Part shown: one piece after another, positions 4,683 through 15,785 of the stretch
Layout: each line of letters opens with the position of its first letter
Numbering within the stretch: position 1 is the stretch's first letter
DNA from: Comamonadaceae bacterium
GTDB lineage: Bacteria > Pseudomonadota > Gammaproteobacteria > Burkholderiales > Burkholderiaceae_C
NCBI GenBank assembly: GCA_030602185.1
Contig: JAUWAE010000002.1
Coordinates: 1 to 56,018 of the forward strand
Direction: 5' to 3'
Length of the DNA stretch: 56,018 bases
The notes under the pieces: generated by a model
The model's database searches: none
What the model saw: only the letters and a program-made list of their open reading frames with translations
What the model was told of the DNA's origin: nothing
Position numbers and translations under genes: made by a program

Positions 4683-5351
4683 ATGCACCGCACCCGAATC
4701 AAGATCTGTGGCCTGACGCGCGAAGACGACGTGCGCCATGCCGTCCACGCCGGGGCCGACGCCATCGGCTTCGTGCTCTACCCGCCCAGCCCGCGCGCCG
4801 TGTCGCCCGAGCGGGCCGGTGAACTGGCCCGCCTGCTGCCCCCGTTCGTGACGCCGGTGCTGCTGTTCGTCAACGCCACAGTCCAAGAGGTGCAGGCTGG
4901 CTTGGCAGCGGTCCCCCATGCCCTGCTGCAGTTCCATGGCGACGAATCGCCGCAGGAATGCCTGGCCCACGGCCGCCCCCACATCCGTGCGGCCCGGGTG
5001 CCCACTGGCGATGGCGCTGCCAGCTTCGATCTCCTAAAATACGCGCAGCAGCACGCCGCCGCACAAGCCATTCTGCTCGACGCCCACGTACAGGGCTATG
5101 GCGGCGGCGGTGTTTCCTTCGACTGGACAGCCTTCAATTGGTCACACCCGCAACTAAACGCCAGCGCTCGCCTCGTTTTGTCTGGTGGACTCACACCTGC
5201 AAATGTGGCCGATGGCATTCGTCTCGTTCGCCCCTGGGCGGTTGACGTGAGTTCGGGCGTGGAAAGCGCCAAAGGCATCAAGAGCCCCGAACTGATCGAC
5301 CGCTTCGTGGCCGCCGTGCGCCAGGCCGACGACCTCCTGGCCCGCGGCTGA
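4683..5351 (+). CDS. trpF: Phosphoribosylanthranilate isomerase
   Basis: Third step of the tryptophan pathway: Amadori rearrangement of N-(5-phosphoribosyl)anthranilate to CdRP. The chosen ATG gives 222 residues beginning with the conserved KICGLT motif, whose Cys9 is the general base. The general acid is Asp133 in LLDAHVQGYGG. The C-terminal LSGGLTPANV and VDVSSGVE motifs bind phosphate. The reading frame stays open further upstream (to about 4584), but that part overlaps truA and lacks family similarity. It lies seven bases after truA and 41 bases before trpB. Confidence 0.96.
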   Translation: MHRTRIKICGLTREDDVRHAVHAGADAIGFVLYPPSPRAVSPERAGELARLLPPFVTPVLLFVNATVQEVQAGLAAVPHALLQFHGDESPQECLAHGRPHIRAARVPTGDGAASFDLLKYAQQHAAAQAILLDAHVQGYGGGGVSFDWTAFNWSHPQLNASARLVLSGGLTPANVADGIRLVRPWAVDVSSGVESAKGIKSPELIDRFVAAVRQADDLLARG

Positions 5352-9132: not shown

Positions 9133-10017
9133 CTACCCGCGCAACAGCCGCTCCACCAGCTGCCTGACCACTTGCAAGCCGGGCGGCTCGGCGCGCTGGT
9201 CCAGCGTCACCAGCCCGAAGCGGGCCGTGCCATCGAGCGCCGGGACGGTGGGCAGGCTCTTGAGGCCCTGGCCGGCGGCGTCGATCGTCAGCACGATGGC
9301 GTCGCTGCGGCGTGCCACCTCCACCAGGGTCTGGGTGTCGTCGCAGCGCAGCGTCACCATCTGGTCCGGGTTGGCGGCAGGCCCGAAACGCTCGGTCAGC
9401 AGCCGGGCCACCTCGTCGCTCAGGGGGGTGGAGGCGATCGGGTAGGCCAGCAGGTCCTCGAACGGCACCGGCGTACCCCGTTGGTACAAGGGGTGGTCTT
9501 CGCGGCACAGGAAACTGCCCGGCATTTCGACCTGCAGGCTCACGCGCAGGTCGGAGGCCGGGCGCAAGGCACGGATGTCGACCACCGCCGCATCCAGCCG
9601 CCGGGCCCGCAGGGCGTCGATCAGCAGGTCGGTTCCGCCCCGGGCCACCTCCAGCTGCAGGCGCGGGTGGTGCTGTGCCATGTGCAACAGCAACGGCGCC
9701 GACAGCAAGGCACCCGGCCCGGAGCCCAACCCGATGCGGACCTTGCCCGTGAGGCCGGCCTGCATCTGGCGCCCCACCGACTTGAGGGCGTCGGCCTCCT
9801 GCACCAAGCTTTTGGCCCGTGGCAGGAACTGCTGGCCAAACACCGTCAGCTCGATGCGCCGCCCCAGGCGATCGAACAGCGCCTGTCCCAGGTCGTCTTC
9901 GAGCGCCTGGATGCTGCGCGACAGCGCGGGCTGGGTCAGGAACAACGCCCGCGAGGCGAGCGCGAACGAGCCCGCGTCGGCCAACGCCAGGAAGTGCCGT
10001 AGCTGAACGAGTGTCAT
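9133..10017 (-). CDS. LysR-family transcriptional regulator
   Basis: A 294-residue LysR-type regulator. The N-terminal winged helix-turn-helix spans about residues 1-60 and reads typically (FLTQPALSRSIQALE). The remainder is a periplasmic-binding-protein-like effector domain. It is transcribed divergently from the M20 amidohydrolase and TRAP transporter genes, which it most likely controls. The 119-base intergenic region holds a T-N11-A dyad only six bases from this gene's start, so it probably also regulates itself. The inducer is unknown; the neighbours suggest an acylated or conjugated amino acid or related carboxylate. Confidence 0.9.
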   Translation of the reverse strand: MTLVQLRHFLALADAGSFALASRALFLTQPALSRSIQALEDDLGQALFDRLGRRIELTVFGQQFLPRAKSLVQEADALKSVGRQMQAGLTGKVRIGLGSGPGALLSAPLLLHMAQHHPRLQLEVARGGTDLLIDALRARRLDAAVVDIRALRPASDLRVSLQVEMPGSFLCREDHPLYQRGTPVPFEDLLAYPIASTPLSDEVARLLTERFGPAANPDQMVTLRCDDTQTLVEVARRSDAIVLTIDAAGQGLKSLPTVPALDGTARFGLVTLDQRAEPPGLQVVRQLVERLLRG

Positions 10018-10023
10018 GGCGAA

Positions 10024-10044
10024 TCAATGCATTTAATTCATTGA
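10024..10044. promoter_or_regulatory. Probable LysR operator (T-N11-A dyad)
   Basis: A perfect inverted repeat TCAATG-N9-CATTGA sits between the divergent LysR and M20 genes and contains the T-N11-A core expected of LysR-family sites. A second, weaker dyad AATG-N10-CATT follows at 10047-10064. Two sites of unequal quality spaced this way fit the usual recognition-site and activation-site layout of LysR promoters. Binding is inferred from pattern and position. Confidence 0.6.
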
Positions 10045-10136
10045 ATAATGTACAACAATGCATTGGACTTGACCAGATTGCGTTCGTAACATGCAGCAAA
10101 GTTCATGTCACGCGCTTGTCAAGAAGGATCGCCACG

Positions 10137-11342
10137 ATGTCGTCCCTGTCCGCACCGCCCACCCAGTCCACGCCTCATCCGGCGCTGGACAGTGCCTTGA
10201 TCGAAGAATTCATCGAGGTGCGGCACGACATCCATCGCCACCCGGAAATGGCGTTCGACGAGCACCGCACCGCCGCACTGGTGGCCGAGCGCCTCCGCGA
10301 TTGGGGCTACGCCGTGACCACCGGACTGGGCGGGACGGGGGTGGTGGGCCAGCTGGTGCGTGGCCAAGGGACCAAGCGCATCGGGCTGCGCGCCGACATG
10401 GACGCCCTGCCCATCGTGGAAAACAGTGGCCTGCCCTGGAGCAGCTGCCACCACGGCGTGATGCACGCCTGTGGCCACGACGGACACACCGCCATGCTGC
10501 TGGCTGCGGCCAAGCACCTGGCCGAGCATGGGCAGTTCGACGGCACGCTCAACCTGATCTTCCAGCCGGCCGAAGAAGGCGCCGGCGGTGCCCTGAAGAT
10601 GATGGAAGACGGCCTGTTCGAGCGCTTCCCGTGCGACGCCATTTTCGCCATGCACAACATGCCCGGCTACCCGCAGGGGCAGCTGGTGTTCCGCGCCGGC
10701 CCCACCATGGCCTCGTCGGACTACGTGACGGTGACGCTGCACGGCCGTGGCGGCCACGGCGGCATGCCGCACCGCGCCGACGACCCCCTGGTGGCCGCGT
10801 CCTCCATCGTGATGGCGCTGCAGACCATCGTGTCGCGCAACACCGACCCGATGCAGCCGGTGGTCATCACCGTGGGCGCGTTCAATGCCGGCCACGCCAA
10901 CAACGTGATCCCCGACACGGCCAAGCTGGAAATCGGCATCCGGGCGCTGGACCCGCAGGTGCGGTTGGACACCGAGCGCCGCTTCAAGGCCCTGGTGCAG
11001 GCCCAGGCCGAAAGCTTCAACGTGCGCGCCGAAATCGACTGGCGGCGCGGCTACGCGGTGCTGGTCAACAGCCCGCACGAAACCCAGCTGGCGCTGGACG
11101 TGGCACGCCGCCACTTCGGCGACGAGCGTGTCAACCCCCACGGCGCCATGCTCACCGGCAGCGAAGACTTCGCCTTCATGCTGGAGCGGGTGCCCGGTTG
11201 CTACCTGTTCATCGGCAACGGGGCCGACGGTGAGCCCGGCGCCTGCATGGTGCACAACCCGGCTTACGACTTCAACGACCGCAACATCGCCATCGGCGCC
11301 GCCTACTGGGTGGCCCTGGCACAGGACCTGCTCACGCCCTGA
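10137..11342 (+). CDS. M20D-family amidohydrolase/carboxypeptidase
   Basis: A 401-residue metal-dependent hydrolase of the M20D group (hippurate hydrolase, AbgB, IAA-amino acid hydrolase type), which releases amino acids from N-acyl or conjugated forms. Metal-ligand motifs are intact: Cys112 and His114 in ACGHDGH, Glu146-Glu147 in FQPAEEGAGG, His173 in AMHNMPG, and a late His in MVHNP. There is no signal peptide, so it acts in the cytosol. The ATG at 10137 is chosen because upstream in-frame sequence runs into the LysR promoter region. It precedes the TRAP genes, suggesting that the imported substrate is hydrolysed here. The exact substrate cannot be told. Confidence 0.9.
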   Translation: MSSLSAPPTQSTPHPALDSALIEEFIEVRHDIHRHPEMAFDEHRTAALVAERLRDWGYAVTTGLGGTGVVGQLVRGQGTKRIGLRADMDALPIVENSGLPWSSCHHGVMHACGHDGHTAMLLAAAKHLAEHGQFDGTLNLIFQPAEEGAGGALKMMEDGLFERFPCDAIFAMHNMPGYPQGQLVFRAGPTMASSDYVTVTLHGRGGHGGMPHRADDPLVAASSIVMALQTIVSRNTDPMQPVVITVGAFNAGHANNVIPDTAKLEIGIRALDPQVRLDTERRFKALVQAQAESFNVRAEIDWRRGYAVLVNSPHETQLALDVARRHFGDERVNPHGAMLTGSEDFAFMLERVPGCYLFIGNGADGEPGACMVHNPAYDFNDRNIAIGAAYWVALAQDLLTP

Positions 11343-11389
11343 GCGTGCGCCCCCTTTTCACCCACCCACCACGACACAGGAGACACAAC

Positions 11390-12427
11390 ATGACCCCACG
11401 CATCCGCATCCACTGCCTCGGCGCCGCGCTGGCCGCCACGCTGCTGGGCGCCACCGCACCCGCGCAGGCGCAAAACACCACCCTCACCCTCTCGAGCTGG
11501 GTGCCACCGACACACTACGTGGTCACCGACATCCTGCAGCCCTGGATCGAGGACGTGAAAAAGGCCACCCAGGGACGGGTGACCATCAACCTGCTGCCCA
11601 AGCCGGTGGGCGCCCCGGCGCAGCACTGGGAACTGGCACGCAAAGGCGTGGCCGACATCACCTGGGGCAACTTCACCTACGAGCCCGAGCGCTTCAAGCA
11701 CGTCTGGTTTGCCGAGCTGCCGCTCATGGGCGACCAGTGCGAGGCCAGCTCGGTGGCGCTGTGGCGCACCTACCAGAAGTTCCTGGCCGAGAACGAAGCT
11801 TTCAAAGGCGTCACGCTGCTGGGCGCCGGCATGCTGGGTGGCGGTCACATCCACCACCCGTCGCGGCTCGTCAACACGCTCGATGGCCTTAAGGGCCAGA
11901 AGGTCCGCATGGGCGGCCCAATCCAGAAACGCCTGCTCGAAGAGATGGGCGCCATCCCAGTGTCGGGCCCCGGCACACGCGCCTATGAAATGCTCGAGGG
12001 CGGCGTGATCGACGCCTCGCTGCACCCGATGGAGTCGGTGGTCAACTTCCGCCTCGACGGCAAGCTCAAGTACCACACCGTGGTCCCGCAGGGCCTGTAC
12101 GATGCAGCGTTCTTTATCGCCATCAACGACAACAAGTGGCGCCGCCTGTCGGCAGCCGACCAGCAGGCCATCATGAAGGTGTCGGGCGAGGCGCTGTCGC
12201 GCCGCTGGGGCCAGCAGTTCGACAAGCAGTCGCGCGACGCCGTGGTGAAGATGCGCGCTGACGGCCACGTATTTGCCGAACCCAACAAGGACCTCATGAA
12301 CGTGGTGCGCAAGGTGCGTGGCGACATGTTGCAGGAACTCAATGCCGACGGTGCCAAGTTCGGCGTGGCCGACCACAATGCCATGGTGCGCTTCTACGAG
12401 CAGCAGTACCAGGCGCTGAAGAAGTAA
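11390..12427 (+). CDS. dctP: TRAP transporter substrate-binding protein (DctP family)
   Basis: Periplasmic solute receptor of a tripartite ATP-independent periplasmic transporter. The ATG at 11390 has AGGAG at 11378-11382 and gives 345 residues, starting with a Sec signal peptide ending near ATAPAQAQ. The mature part has the DctP fold and the conserved ligand-binding Arg region (KVRMGG then GAIPV). TRAP receptors bind carboxylates; the ligand here is not known. It lies 47 bases after the M20 gene and is followed by both membrane subunits. Confidence 0.92.
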   Translation: MTPRIRIHCLGAALAATLLGATAPAQAQNTTLTLSSWVPPTHYVVTDILQPWIEDVKKATQGRVTINLLPKPVGAPAQHWELARKGVADITWGNFTYEPERFKHVWFAELPLMGDQCEASSVALWRTYQKFLAENEAFKGVTLLGAGMLGGGHIHHPSRLVNTLDGLKGQKVRMGGPIQKRLLEEMGAIPVSGPGTRAYEMLEGGVIDASLHPMESVVNFRLDGKLKYHTVVPQGLYDAAFFIAINDNKWRRLSAADQQAIMKVSGEALSRRWGQQFDKQSRDAVVKMRADGHVFAEPNKDLMNVVRKVRGDMLQELNADGAKFGVADHNAMVRFYEQQYQALKK

Positions 12428-12461
12428 ACGCCTGCCGCAACCCACCCACTGGAGTCGGACC

Positions 12462-12950
12462 ATGCAAGCGCTCCTGCAGCCCCTACAACGCGCGATCAGC
12501 GTCTTGCTGGTCCTGATGCTCGCGGCGATGGTGACCCTCACCTTCGCCGACGTGCTGGGCAGGCGACTGCTCAACGCCCCGGTCTTCGGCGCCAACGACC
12601 TGACCGAGCACCTGATGGCCATCATCATCTTCGCCGGCCTGCCGGTGCTCACCGCGCACCGCGGCCACCTGAGTGTCGACCTGTTCGATCACTGGCTGCT
12701 CACGCCACGCTGGCGCGCCTGGCACAAGGCGGTGGACGTGTTGATCGCCGCCGTGCTCGGCCTGATCGCATTCGAGTACTACCTCGCCATTGGTGAGGCC
12801 CGCGAGATCAACGAAGTCAGTCCCGCTCTGACCATCCCGCGCTACTGGATGTACGGCTTCATCACCGTCACCACCGCACTGGCCGCCGTGGCCGCCCTGT
12901 TCGTGTCCGCCCCACGTCACGGGCATGCGCCCGAGGAGACCGCCCCATGA
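12462..12950 (+). CDS. dctQ: TRAP transporter small permease (DctQ family)
   Basis: Small membrane subunit of the TRAP transporter, 162 residues with about four predicted transmembrane helices. The family pattern FADVLGR followed by FGANDLTEHLM near residues 28-50 is visible. It bridges the receptor and the large permease. Its stop overlaps the dctM start (ATGA), indicating translational coupling and a fixed stoichiometry. Confidence 0.92.
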   Translation: MQALLQPLQRAISVLLVLMLAAMVTLTFADVLGRRLLNAPVFGANDLTEHLMAIIIFAGLPVLTAHRGHLSVDLFDHWLLTPRWRAWHKAVDVLIAAVLGLIAFEYYLAIGEAREINEVSPALTIPRYWMYGFITVTTALAAVAALFVSAPRHGHAPEETAP

Positions 12951-14239
12951 CCATCGGATTGATCGGCCTGGCCATGGTGCTGCTGCTGGCCTTCATGCGG
13001 GTGCCCCTGGGCATTTCGCTGCTCACGGTGTCCATCGGTGGCATTGCCTACCTCAACAGCTTCGACGCCGCACGCACCCTGTTGCCCATGACGCTGACCG
13101 AAGCCGCGTTCTCCTACGAACTCGCGGTGGTGCCACTGTTCATCCTGATGGGCAACGTGCTGTCGCGCACCGGCATTTCGGAAGACCTGTTCCGCGCCGC
13201 CAACGCCTTCCTGGGCGCGGTGCGCGGCGGGCTCGCCCTGGCGACCATGGTGACCTGCGCCGGCTTCAGCGCCGTGTGCGGCTCCAGCTTCGCCACCGCG
13301 GCCACCATGTCCAAAGTAGCCTACCCGAGCATGAAAAAGTACGGCTACTCTGACCGTCTGGCGTCGGCCACCATCGCCGCCGGGGGTACGCTGGGCATTC
13401 TCATCCCCCCGTCCATCATCCTGATGATCTACGGCATCCTGACGCAGCAGAACATCGGTGAGCTGTTCATTGCCGGCGTGCTGCCGGGGCTGCTGGGACT
13501 GGCCCTGTACATGGCCGCGATCTACGCAATTGCGTGGTTCAAGCCCGAACACGCGCCGCGCGGCGACAAGGTGCCCATGGCCGAGCGCTGGCGCTCGCTG
13601 GCGGGGGTGTGGCCATTCCTGGCCCTGTTCCTGCTCATCATCGGCGGCCTGTACATGGGCTGGTTCACCGCCACCGAGGCTGGCGGCATTGGCGCCGGGC
13701 TGGCCCTGCTGGTGGCCCTGGTGCAAGGCCGGCTGGGCTGGCAGCGCTTCTATGAAGTGATGCGCGAAACCGCGATGACCTCGGTGATGCTCTACGTGGT
13801 GCTGTTCGGGGCGATGCTGTTCTCGCAGTTCATCACCTTCTCCGGCCTGGCCGACGAACTGCTGAACCTGGTGCAAGGCTCGGGGCTGCCCCGCATGGGC
13901 ATCCTGCTCGCCATCCTGGCCGTGTTCCTGCTGCTGGGCTGCGTGATGGACGCGATGGCCATCATCCTTATCTTCGTGCCGCTGTTCGCGCCCACCCTGG
14001 TGGCGCAGGGTTTCGACCTGGTGTGGTTCGGCATCATCGTGGTGGTGCTGACCGAGATCGGGCTCATCACCCCGCCGGTGGGCATGAACGTCTTCGTGCT
14101 CAAGGCCAACCTGCCCAAGGTGCCGGTGGGCACCATCTTCCGCGGGCTGCTGCCCTTCGTGGGGGTGGACCTGATCCGGTTGGCGCTGCTGGTGGGGTTC
14201 CCTTCCATCAGCTTGGCACTGGTGCACTTGATGAGGTGA
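12947..14239 (+). CDS. dctM: TRAP transporter large permease (DctM family)
   Basis: Sodium-coupled transport subunit, 430 residues with roughly a dozen transmembrane segments and the Gly/Pro-rich re-entrant motifs of the family (GGTLGILIPPS and EIGLITPPVGMNVF). It completes the dctPQM set and overlaps dctQ by four bases. Its last codons also carry the -35 element of the downstream riboswitch promoter, so the dadA unit starts inside the end of this gene. Confidence 0.94.
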   Translation: MTIGLIGLAMVLLLAFMRVPLGISLLTVSIGGIAYLNSFDAARTLLPMTLTEAAFSYELAVVPLFILMGNVLSRTGISEDLFRAANAFLGAVRGGLALATMVTCAGFSAVCGSSFATAATMSKVAYPSMKKYGYSDRLASATIAAGGTLGILIPPSIILMIYGILTQQNIGELFIAGVLPGLLGLALYMAAIYAIAWFKPEHAPRGDKVPMAERWRSLAGVWPFLALFLLIIGGLYMGWFTATEAGGIGAGLALLVALVQGRLGWQRFYEVMRETAMTSVMLYVVLFGAMLFSQFITFSGLADELLNLVQGSGLPRMGILLAILAVFLLLGCVMDAMAIILIFVPLFAPTLVAQGFDLVWFGIIVVVLTEIGLITPPVGMNVFVLKANLPKVPVGTIFRGLLPFVGVDLIRLALLVGFPSISLALVHLMR

Positions 14240-14256
14240 AACGCACCCCCTAGAAT
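14228..14256 (+). promoter_or_regulatory. Sigma-70-type promoter for the riboswitch-dadA unit
   Basis: TTGATG (14228-14233) and TAGAAT (14251-14256) are separated by exactly 17 bases. The predicted transcription start is near 14263, right at the first base of the glycine aptamer. The -35 lies in the last codons of dctM. Agreement with the consensus, the spacing and the position before the riboswitch support it. Confidence 0.75.
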
Positions 14257-14262
14257 ACAAGT

Positions 14263-14458
14263 CACCGATCGGGAGAGCCCGGCCTGCCCACTCCGCAGGC
14301 CGGCGCCGAAGGAGCAACCGCCCCGGAAACTCTCAGGCAAAAGGACCGGTCGGTGTTGGACAGAACTCTGAAGAGCGGCCGGTGTCGTCACCCGGTCCAC
14401 CGCAGGAGCAAGTGACCCCACTGCGGGGCCACGAATCTCTCAGGTTCCAAACAGAGGG
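14263..14458 (+). promoter_or_regulatory. Tandem glycine riboswitch upstream of dadA
   Basis: Two glycine-type aptamers in series. Aptamer 1 (about 14265-14353) has P1 CCGATC (14265-14270) pairing GGTCGG (14348-14353), and the conserved core GGGAGAG, CGCCGAAGGAGCAA and ACTCTCAGGCAAAAGGAC. Aptamer 2 (about 14364-14458) has P1 CTCTG (14366-14370) pairing CAGAG (14452-14456), and the core AGGAGCAA and AATCTCTCAGGTTCC. A short linker separates them. These are hallmarks of the glycine (gcvT-motif) class. It lies in the leader of the DadA-family gene, so that gene is predicted to respond to glycine. The usual target, the glycine cleavage operon, is absent here. Confidence 0.93.
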
Positions 14459-14489
14459 GGCGCACATCCCGCACGGGGTGGGATGCGCC
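14459..14489 (+). promoter_or_regulatory. Hairpin in the riboswitch expression platform
   Basis: GGCGCA (14459-14464) pairs TGCGCC (14484-14489) and TCCC (14467-14470) pairs GGGA (14480-14483), with a CA bulge and a nine-base loop. No U-run follows. The stem can be extended by GAGG (14455-14458) with CCTC (14494-14497), which would take bases from the 3' strand of aptamer 2 P1. That makes it a candidate for the alternative structure that reads out glycine binding. The mode of control (transcriptional or translational) is not clear from sequence. Confidence 0.55.
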
Positions 14490-14519
14490 GTTACCTCATG
14501 ACGTGTTTGGAGCCTGCCC

Positions 14520-15785
14520 ATGCAATCGATCGCCGTCATCGGCGGTGGCATCACCGGTGTCACCACAGCCTACGCCCTGGCCAAACGGGGCCTCAAGGTC
14601 ACCCTGTTCGAGCAGAACCGCTACGCGGCCATGGAAACCTCGTTCGCCAACGGCGGACAACTCTCGGCCTCCAACGCCGAGGTGTGGACGCACTGGTCCA
14701 CCATCCTCAAAGGCCTGAAGTGGATGCTCAAGAACGACGCGCCGCTGCTGGTCAACCCCAAGCCCAGCTGGCACAAGGTGTCCTGGTTCCTGGAGTTCAT
14801 TGCCAATATCCCCCACTACGAACGAAACACCACCGCCACCGCCCAGCTGGCGATCGCGGCGCGCGAGCACTTCTTCGCCTGGGCCGAGGCCGAGGGGCTG
14901 GACTTCAACGTGGAGAAGCGCGGCATCCTGCACATCTACCGCGACAAGCAGGGCTTTGACCACGCCGCGCGCGTGAGCCAGCTGCTGGCCGCCGGGGGGC
15001 TGGAGCGCCGCGCCGTCACGCCGCAAGAGATGCGCGCCATCGAACCCACGCTGGCCGGCACCTACTACGGCGGCTTCTACACCGAAAGCGATGCGACGGG
15101 CGACATCCACAAGTACACCGTCGGGCTGGCAGCCGCGGCCGAGCGCCTGGGCGTGACCATCCGCTACGGGCAGCAGGTGCACCAGGTGCGCAGCGACGGC
15201 GCCTCGGCCTGGGTCGCCACGCAGGACGACGCGGGCGAACACACCCACCGCTTCGACGCCCTGGTGGTCTGCGCCGGCGTGGCCAGCCGCCAGTTCGCGG
15301 CGCAGCTGGGCGACCGGGTCAACATCTACCCGGTCAAGGGCTATTCGATCACCGTGAACCTGCTGGACGAGGCCAGCCAGCAGGCCGCCCCCTGGGTGAG
15401 CCTGCTGGACGACGAAACCAAGCTGGTGACCAGCCGGCTGGGCCCGGACCGCTTCCGGGTTGCCGGCACGGCCGAGTTCAATGGCTACAACAAGGACATC
15501 CGGGCCGATCGCATCCAGCCGCTGGTGGATTGGGTGAACCAGTGCTTCCCCGGAGTGAACACGCGCCAGGTGGTGCCCTGGGCCGGCCTGCGCCCCATGA
15601 TGCCCGACATGATGCCGCGCGTGGGTCGGGGCAAGCGACCCAACGTGTACTACAACACCGGGCACGGCCACCTGGGCTGGACACTGAGCGCCGGCACCGC
15701 GCACCTGATCGCCGACGTGGTGAGCGCAGACCGCGCCCGCCCGCAGGTGGGTGTGGCTCCGGTGGCCGCGGCCGCCAGGGCCTGA
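14520..15785 (+). CDS. dadA: DadA-family FAD-dependent D-amino acid dehydrogenase
   Basis: A 421-residue FAD flavoenzyme of the DadA/DAO family that oxidatively deaminates amino acids to keto acids and passes electrons to the respiratory chain. The FAD-binding GGGITGVTTAYALAKRG is at residues 8-24, followed by an acidic residue closing the Rossmann beta-alpha-beta (LFEQ). The C-terminal family motif GHGHLGWTLSAGTA is intact. The ATG at 14520 follows GGAG (14509-14512) by seven bases. Control by a glycine riboswitch is unexpected for a D-alanine enzyme and raises the possibility that glycine, or an amino acid linked to its metabolism, is a relevant substrate or signal. It ends four bases from the convergent nagZ. 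Confidence 0.9.
   Translation: MQSIAVIGGGITGVTTAYALAKRGLKVTLFEQNRYAAMETSFANGGQLSASNAEVWTHWSTILKGLKWMLKNDAPLLVNPKPSWHKVSWFLEFIANIPHYERNTTATAQLAIAAREHFFAWAEAEGLDFNVEKRGILHIYRDKQGFDHAARVSQLLAAGGLERRAVTPQEMRAIEPTLAGTYYGGFYTESDATGDIHKYTVGLAAAAERLGVTIRYGQQVHQVRSDGASAWVATQDDAGEHTHRFDALVVCAGVASRQFAAQLGDRVNIYPVKGYSITVNLLDEASQQAAPWVSLLDDETKLVTSRLGPDRFRVAGTAEFNGYNKDIRADRIQPLVDWVNQCFPGVNTRQVVPWAGLRPMMPDMMPRVGRGKRPNVYYNTGHGHLGWTLSAGTAHLIADVVSADRARPQVGVAPVAAAARA

Follow-up and report, generated by a model that had tools for sequence, protein, structure and literature searches.

The closest described relative of the element studied here is the glycine riboswitch of Neisseria gonorrhoeae gcvT, in which aptamer 2 helps to sequester the ribosome-binding site when glycine is absent (PMC13104608). 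Its two aptamers abut, with a strong aptamer 1 and a weaker aptamer 2, and the same arrangement is found in a 56,018 nucleotide (nt) stretch of a Comamonadaceae genome (contig JAUWAE010000002.1), which we call the window. The N. gonorrhoeae element has been tested experimentally as a translational ON switch and serves gcvT-NGFG_01513-gcvH, whereas the switch in the window is predicted by folding and comparison and precedes a gene for a flavin dehydrogenase. The gcvTHP riboswitch of Burkholderia spp. (Munyati-Othman et al. 2021) shares the ligand class and the theme of glycine catabolism. Its target is glycine cleavage, whereas the gene in the window is predicted to oxidise glycine to glyoxylate. 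We consider it likely that the tandem glycine riboswitch of the window is a translational ON switch for a glycine-oxidising dehydrogenase dependent on flavin adenine dinucleotide (FAD). The aptamers, the gene family, the recurrence of the pair and the complementarity of two leader strands come directly from the computation. The features of the leader and its gene are given below; R1 is a covariance model which we built from 20 aptamers.

14228..14256, + strand: sigma-70-like promoter (TTGATG 14228-14233, 17 nt, TAGAAT 14251-14256)
14260..14358, + strand: glycine aptamer 1, well conserved (RF00504 71 bits; R1 84.3 bits)
14358..14464, + strand: glycine aptamer 2, with a divergent core of CTGAAGAG, CCGCAGG and AAACAG (RF00504 39.4 bits)
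14441..14453, + strand: anti-Shine-Dalgarno strand CAGGTTCCAAACA, within the 3' half of aptamer 2 (13 pairs with 14504-14516)
14459..14489, + strand: hairpin between aptamer 2 and the Shine-Dalgarno region (predicted leader fold)
14504..14516, + strand: Shine-Dalgarno region TGTTTGGAGCCTG (GGAG 14509-14512, start codon 14520)
14520..15785, + strand: FAD-dependent amino acid dehydrogenase, NF009074/PRK12409, predicted glycine dehydrogenase (NCBIfam 735.1 bits; Pfam DAO 258 bits)

The 13 positions of the anti-Shine-Dalgarno (anti-SD) strand are all complementary to the Shine-Dalgarno (SD) region, with one G-U pair. In the predicted free fold of the window leader, the SD is fully paired to this 3' strand of aptamer 2, and the hairpin at 14459-14489 is the upper part of a long sequestering stem. 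The predicted unpaired probability of the GGAG is 0.00 in the free fold and 0.57 when the helices of aptamer 2 are forced. Segments of 22 nt pair at -25.0 kcal/mol in this leader. Among 76 leaders, the 16-nt anti-SD strand pairs with its own SD region at a mean of -13.4 kcal/mol, against -6.4 (standard deviation, sd, 2.5) for shuffled sequences, and 58 of them lie beyond 2 sd of the shuffles. Of 75 leaders, 57 have a free fold in which more than half of the SD is paired to the 3' strand of aptamer 2, and in 60 the SD becomes more accessible when aptamer 2 is forced. L062, whose start codon was mis-picked, was skipped in the folding and is included in the 16-nt and 22-nt pairing sets; the 22-nt set also contains L037 and L109 with mis-picked start codons. 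Since the SD is blocked in the free fold and freer once aptamer 2 forms, folding and comparison predict a translational ON switch, the mechanism which best fits this leader. The leader L045 (Tepidimonas aquatica, 4700-5003) has lost aptamer 1 and the 5' half of aptamer 2 and has kept the 3' strand and the SD region. It is a decayed riboswitch and offers a deletion experiment made by nature.

The coupling of riboswitch and gene recurs across the phylum and is not a one-off. We kept 80 of 445 confirmed loci, the closest protein relatives, as named loci. A glycine aptamer is matched by R1 in 75 of them, and a full aptamer 1, beginning 238-295 nt ahead of the protein match, in 73; the sequence of L034 begins within aptamer 1, and L045 retains no more than a remnant of aptamer 2. 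No R1 match is found in the other five. In three of these (L054, L058, L106) the gene directly follows an M20 amidohydrolase gene, and the contigs of L059 and L107 hold just 128 and 2 nt upstream. Of 349 genomes drawn across the phylum, 22 have NF009074 genes (E<=1e-180), and an aptamer lies upstream in 21 of the 22 loci, the window included. Twenty of these loci were newly fetched, and Rfam concurs for 19 of them; L143 is the only locus of this draw without an aptamer. In a tree of 99 rows, riboswitch-bearing genes occupy the deepest branchings and are spread over the whole NF009074 clade, whose rows number 56 with a riboswitch and four without. This tree was midpoint-rooted for drawing and has several long branches; it leaves out the short L079, roughly half the named rows of NF009074 and the three NF001933 loci in which no gene was called.

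The initial annotation of this DNA had described a canonical promoter, two complete glycine aptamers and a DadA-family gene with a good ribosome-binding site as one self-contained unit. The covariance-model search confirms both aptamers: In the whole genome they exceed the RF00504 gathering score of 32, they abut on the same strand, and one gene lies downstream, starting 55 nt beyond aptamer 2. The promoter is also found, as TTGATG-17-TAGAAT is the single site between 14000 and 14600, where shuffled sequences give 0.0 (sd 0.3). A transcription start near 14260-14263 is plausible, because three bases separate the -10 box from aptamer 1. The gene and its GGAG are present as described. The term self-contained holds only in part: The dctM gene, which runs in the same direction, ends within the promoter (stop 14239), so read-through is possible from the upstream genes for an M20 amidohydrolase and a tripartite ATP-independent periplasmic (TRAP) transporter. 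Promoter-like sites are also found in some near relatives of this leader. Beyond these, conservation of the promoter is not upheld, with a mean score of 6.84 in 74 leaders against 6.25 (sd 1.2) for shuffled sequences. A scan of 14000-14600 found no intrinsic terminator, and a platform based on transcription termination is not supported without such a site.

Glycine is the presumed ligand, from the class of the riboswitch. Aptamer 2 is the divergent one, because an R1 search of the window (E<=0.1, filters on) recovers aptamer 1 and not aptamer 2. Among the 73 named loci which have an aptamer 1 match, R1 with filters on detects aptamer 2 in just 10. The window-wide Rfam table gives aptamer 1 alone, one overlapping lower-scoring match being omitted there. 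We have rejected the idea that aptamer 2 is spurious: Its Rfam match is above the gathering score, and 74 of 78 related leaders contain the core motif C[TG]CTCAGG twice. The aptamer 2 of the window deviates from near-invariant positions of our alignment A2, with CTGGAGAG and GGACAG replaced by CTGAAGAG and AAACAG. These replacements may be connected with a homopurine pair, G-G/A-A, which Barrick and Breaker (2007) predicted.

The gene codes for a product of 421 amino acids. Its score with NF009074/PRK12409, a family named 'D-amino acid dehydrogenase', is over the curated cut-off of 494 bits. The scores with NF001933/PRK00711, the DadA subfamily (350.1 bits, cut-off 383), and with the ThiO glycine oxidase model TIGR02352 (152.6 bits, cut-off 250.8) are under their cut-offs. 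The initial label of DadA family is correct for the superfamily but not for the classical DadA subfamily, and the gene belongs to a sister family of DadA. Escherichia coli DadA (dadA-dadX) is a member of the same FAD-dependent superfamily. It is placed on the NF001933 side of the tree, on a long branch far from the NF009074 clade, and no RF00504 match was found in the E. coli control genome. The nearest solved sequences and folds are ThiO glycine oxidases of Bacillus and Geobacillus, with about 21% identity. In the comparison of the predicted structure (mean predicted local distance difference test score 82.5), glycine oxidases are followed by sarcosine oxidases and their relatives, and dimethylglycine dehydrogenase is also among the nearest folds.

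A probable orthologue is DadA6 of Cupriavidus necator, whose gene has been named 'glycine oxidase' (PMC11879842) and which is also treated in PMC12421819. The available text of these two papers does not mention a glycine riboswitch, unlike the situation in the window. In 5 of 7 Cupriavidus loci, the published dadA6 reverse primer matches a site about 1.2 kb ahead of the riboswitch-gene unit, with 1-2 mismatches, and this flanking match points to DadA6 as the probable orthologue. Claassens and coworkers reportedly described DadA6-dependent glycine oxidation in 2020. FAD-dependent oxidation of glycine to glyoxylate is the function which we infer as the best, because of the sensed ligand, the name given to DadA6, the neighbouring genes, the presence of malate synthase G and the predicted fold.

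The switch and the enzyme would work together as follows. When glycine is lacking, the SD region would pair with the aptamer 2 3' strand in one long hairpin, which would block ribosome binding. Glycine would make aptamer 2 fold, aided by the well-conserved aptamer 1, so that the strand would be reclaimed and the SD freed. The enzyme would then oxidise glycine to iminoacetate and glyoxylate, with a predicted electron acceptor. A malate synthase G is found in the same genome (1160.5 bits); it can be a glyoxylate outlet and would pass glyoxylate on, although this downstream route is also a prediction. Glycine would then have two outlets, this oxidation and the glycine cleavage system; the gcvT gene of the latter also has a glycine riboswitch in this genome.

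Several observations weigh against this reading. The divergent aptamer 2 may bind glycine weakly, the riboswitch is lacking in L054, L058, L106 and L143 and decayed in L045, and forcing aptamer 2 leaves SD accessibility unraised in 15 of the 75 leaders. The 22-nt segments pair at a mean of -18.0 kcal/mol with their own SD, -16.8 with that of other species and -12.0 (sd 3.6) when shuffled. The signal is mostly shared complementarity and not co-change, because the SD regions of other species pair nearly as well. In the anti-SD/SD helix of 63 leaders, 66.3% of the cells are paired, compared with 25-48% in slid versions; none of 500 shuffles reaches this value, but 65.2% is expected from the make-up of the columns. 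Two-sided change is found in 4 of the 12 pairs, a result reached by 27 of 500 shuffles. Seven cells show it, and some slid versions have more (23 and 21), so the covariation is modest. The clearest co-change is found in four CAAGGAC-type leaders, whose SD regions give -12.7 with their own strand against -6.5 with the common type. Only the SDs of the CAAGGAC group, the CCGAAC group and the mixed rest prefer their own type. With CCGAAC strands, CCAAAC SDs pair at -16.7 (own -15.1) and CCAGAAC SDs at -14.0 (own -13.3). The anti-SD pairing has been lost (-5.6) from eight leaders of the Limnohabitans type. These leaders (L072, L073, L077, L080, L082, L088, L095, L108) retain both aptamer cores, so their expression platform must apparently be a different one.

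The enzyme side has its own difficulties. Glycine, sarcosine and D-amino acid enzymes have one fold in common, so the likeness to glycine oxidases argues only weakly for glycine. The best glyoxylate carboligase match of the genome has 325.9 bits, below the cut-off of 711.2. The orthology of DadA6 is indirect. Its forward primer is found in none of the seven Cupriavidus loci at up to 4 mismatches, and one genome, that of C. lacunae, has the exact primer on another contig, about 1 kb from its edge; blastn found no match between this contig and the seven loci. The exact reverse primer is absent from all 60 Cupriavidus genomes searched, so strain H16 is probably not among them.

The family name in NCBIfam suggests another possibility, a D-amino acid dehydrogenase for D-alanine, D-serine or a similar substrate, with glycine as a signal of amino acid or cell-wall stress which switches the gene on. 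We consider this rather unlikely. DadA-subfamily genes are also linked to the riboswitch: In a second set, formed by the 40 next-best DadA hits by score in 299 genomes of the same bacterial family, a glycine aptamer is found upstream of 38 genes, although these come from the top of the list and the fraction is not unbiased. The set was taken consecutively from the G275 row, passing over the partial rows G091 and G233:C78, and all seven genes scored pass the NF001933 cut-off. On the other hand, the genome of the window has a DadA-subfamily gene of its own (G000:C37:33347-34615, - strand, L185; NF001933 453.9 bits), and the whole-genome RF00504 search found no riboswitch for it. E. coli dadA is followed by alanine racemase, whereas no alanine racemase was found in the 120 flanks searched with E. 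coli DadX at 1e-8 (up to 5 kb, 2.5 kb for the second, NF001933, family), a search in which the E. coli dadAX control was positive. The name of the probable orthologue DadA6, glycine oxidase (PMC11879842), also argues against a D-amino acid. The initial annotation had proposed that the enzyme oxidises glycine or a D-amino acid formed under high glycine. The first of these is now better supported and the second less so. The tie to glycine is strengthened by the conserved coupling, the anatomy of an ON switch and the DadA6 name.

The direction of the switch could also be the opposite, with high glycine repressing the gene so that D-alanine is spared for the cell wall. Glycine OFF switches do exist for sodium-alanine symporters (PMC13104608), and the enzyme could chemically be able to destroy D-alanine. 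Such a switch is very unlikely here, as the predicted SD is blocked without aptamer 2 and freer with it in the 60 leaders mentioned above, aptamer 1 is the conserved one, and 75 of the 76 leaders have a G-tract directly after aptamer 2, with a possible C-tract partner in 42. ON switches have a conserved pocket in aptamer 1 or in both aptamers and frequently a C-tract/G-tract pseudoknot (PMC13104608, after Torgerson et al.). Finally, the substrate might be an N-substituted glycine such as sarcosine, glycine reporting on that pathway. Sarcosine oxidase and dimethylglycine dehydrogenase are among the nearest folds, and the M20 amidohydrolase is frequent in the flanks. We find this the hardest to believe, since a glycine ligand more simply fits the substrate or the product of the amidohydrolase, and the published dadA6 name refers to glycine.

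The genes which precede the riboswitch in the window are the following:

9133..10017, - strand: LysR-family regulator, divergent from the amidohydrolase (Pfam)
10122..11342, + strand: M20 amidohydrolase (TIGR01891, 360.7 bits), start taken at 10122
11390..14239, + strand: TRAP transporter dctP-dctQ-dctM, directly upstream (Pfam/NCBIfam)

This cluster, 9133-14239, suggests uptake and hydrolysis of N-acyl amino acids, for example N-acylglycine. Its genes are not equally frequent elsewhere. Of 78 loci, 44 have the M20 amidohydrolase in their flanks, and in 26 of these it ends 263-418 nt ahead of the gene, next to the riboswitch. In the 120 flanks searched for alanine racemase, the amidohydrolase is found in 57. 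LysR is found in 31 of the 78. DctM matches are found in eight, directly upstream in five of them (L035, L039, L043, L051, L060); the remaining three are distant (31-33%) and downstream.

A more ambitious reading is that all NF009074 enzymes are riboswitch-controlled glycine dehydrogenases, a second outlet for glycine throughout the phylum. In the window this would be an N-acylglycine route: uptake by the TRAP transporter, hydrolysis to glycine by the M20 enzyme, translation triggered by glycine, and conversion of glyoxylate to malate. We regard this as possible but doubtful, with lower odds since no more than the five loci just mentioned have TRAP genes directly upstream. The family is probably misnamed as D-amino acid dehydrogenase.

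The riboswitch class and the principle of switching are already known; the link to the NF009074 family is what we have not found in print. Twelve glycine-metabolism orthologues have been described under glycine riboswitches (Sun et al. 2013, PMC3766115), and 'dadA' is absent from the main text of that paper. Literature which names both the glycine riboswitch and glycine oxidase ties thiO, in the parts available, to thiamine pyrophosphate riboswitches. Our literature search found no glycine riboswitch-dadA link; it did not cover the Sun et al. supplement, Torgerson 2020 or Claassens 2020, and an earlier published notice is possible. The coupling is broader than the initial annotation had proposed, as it is phylum-wide, and its mechanism can be stated at the level of base pairs as a testable model. 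The function of a widespread enzyme family, and a better name for it, are predicted from the RNA which precedes the gene. The likely targets of glycine riboswitches would gain an oxidative route which forms glyoxylate. Engineering of the reductive glycine pathway would gain a native glycine-responsive control element for an oxidation step which wastes glycine.

A shared anti-SD mechanism is only partly supported in the NF001933 class, being clear in some leaders and absent in others. The mean pairing of 35 of the 40 leaders is -13.9, against -12.3 for shuffled sequences (sd 4.0); the others have no gene call (L152, L166, L177) or no aptamer core (L172, L180). The NF001933 gene of the genome itself adjoins an ArgP/LysG-type regulator (360.7 bits). 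This genome contains only two glycine riboswitch sites, that of the window and a second tandem (G000:C112:12426-12662, - strand, L002/L003) ahead of gcvT (NF010093 535.3 bits). An unusual target is found in another genome (G007:C1:1068901-1069105, L005), where tandem glycine aptamers of 68.8 and 44.8 bits precede an open reading frame related to the binding proteins of branched-chain amino acid ATP-binding cassette transporters (NF011933 234.6 bits, below the cut-off of 477).

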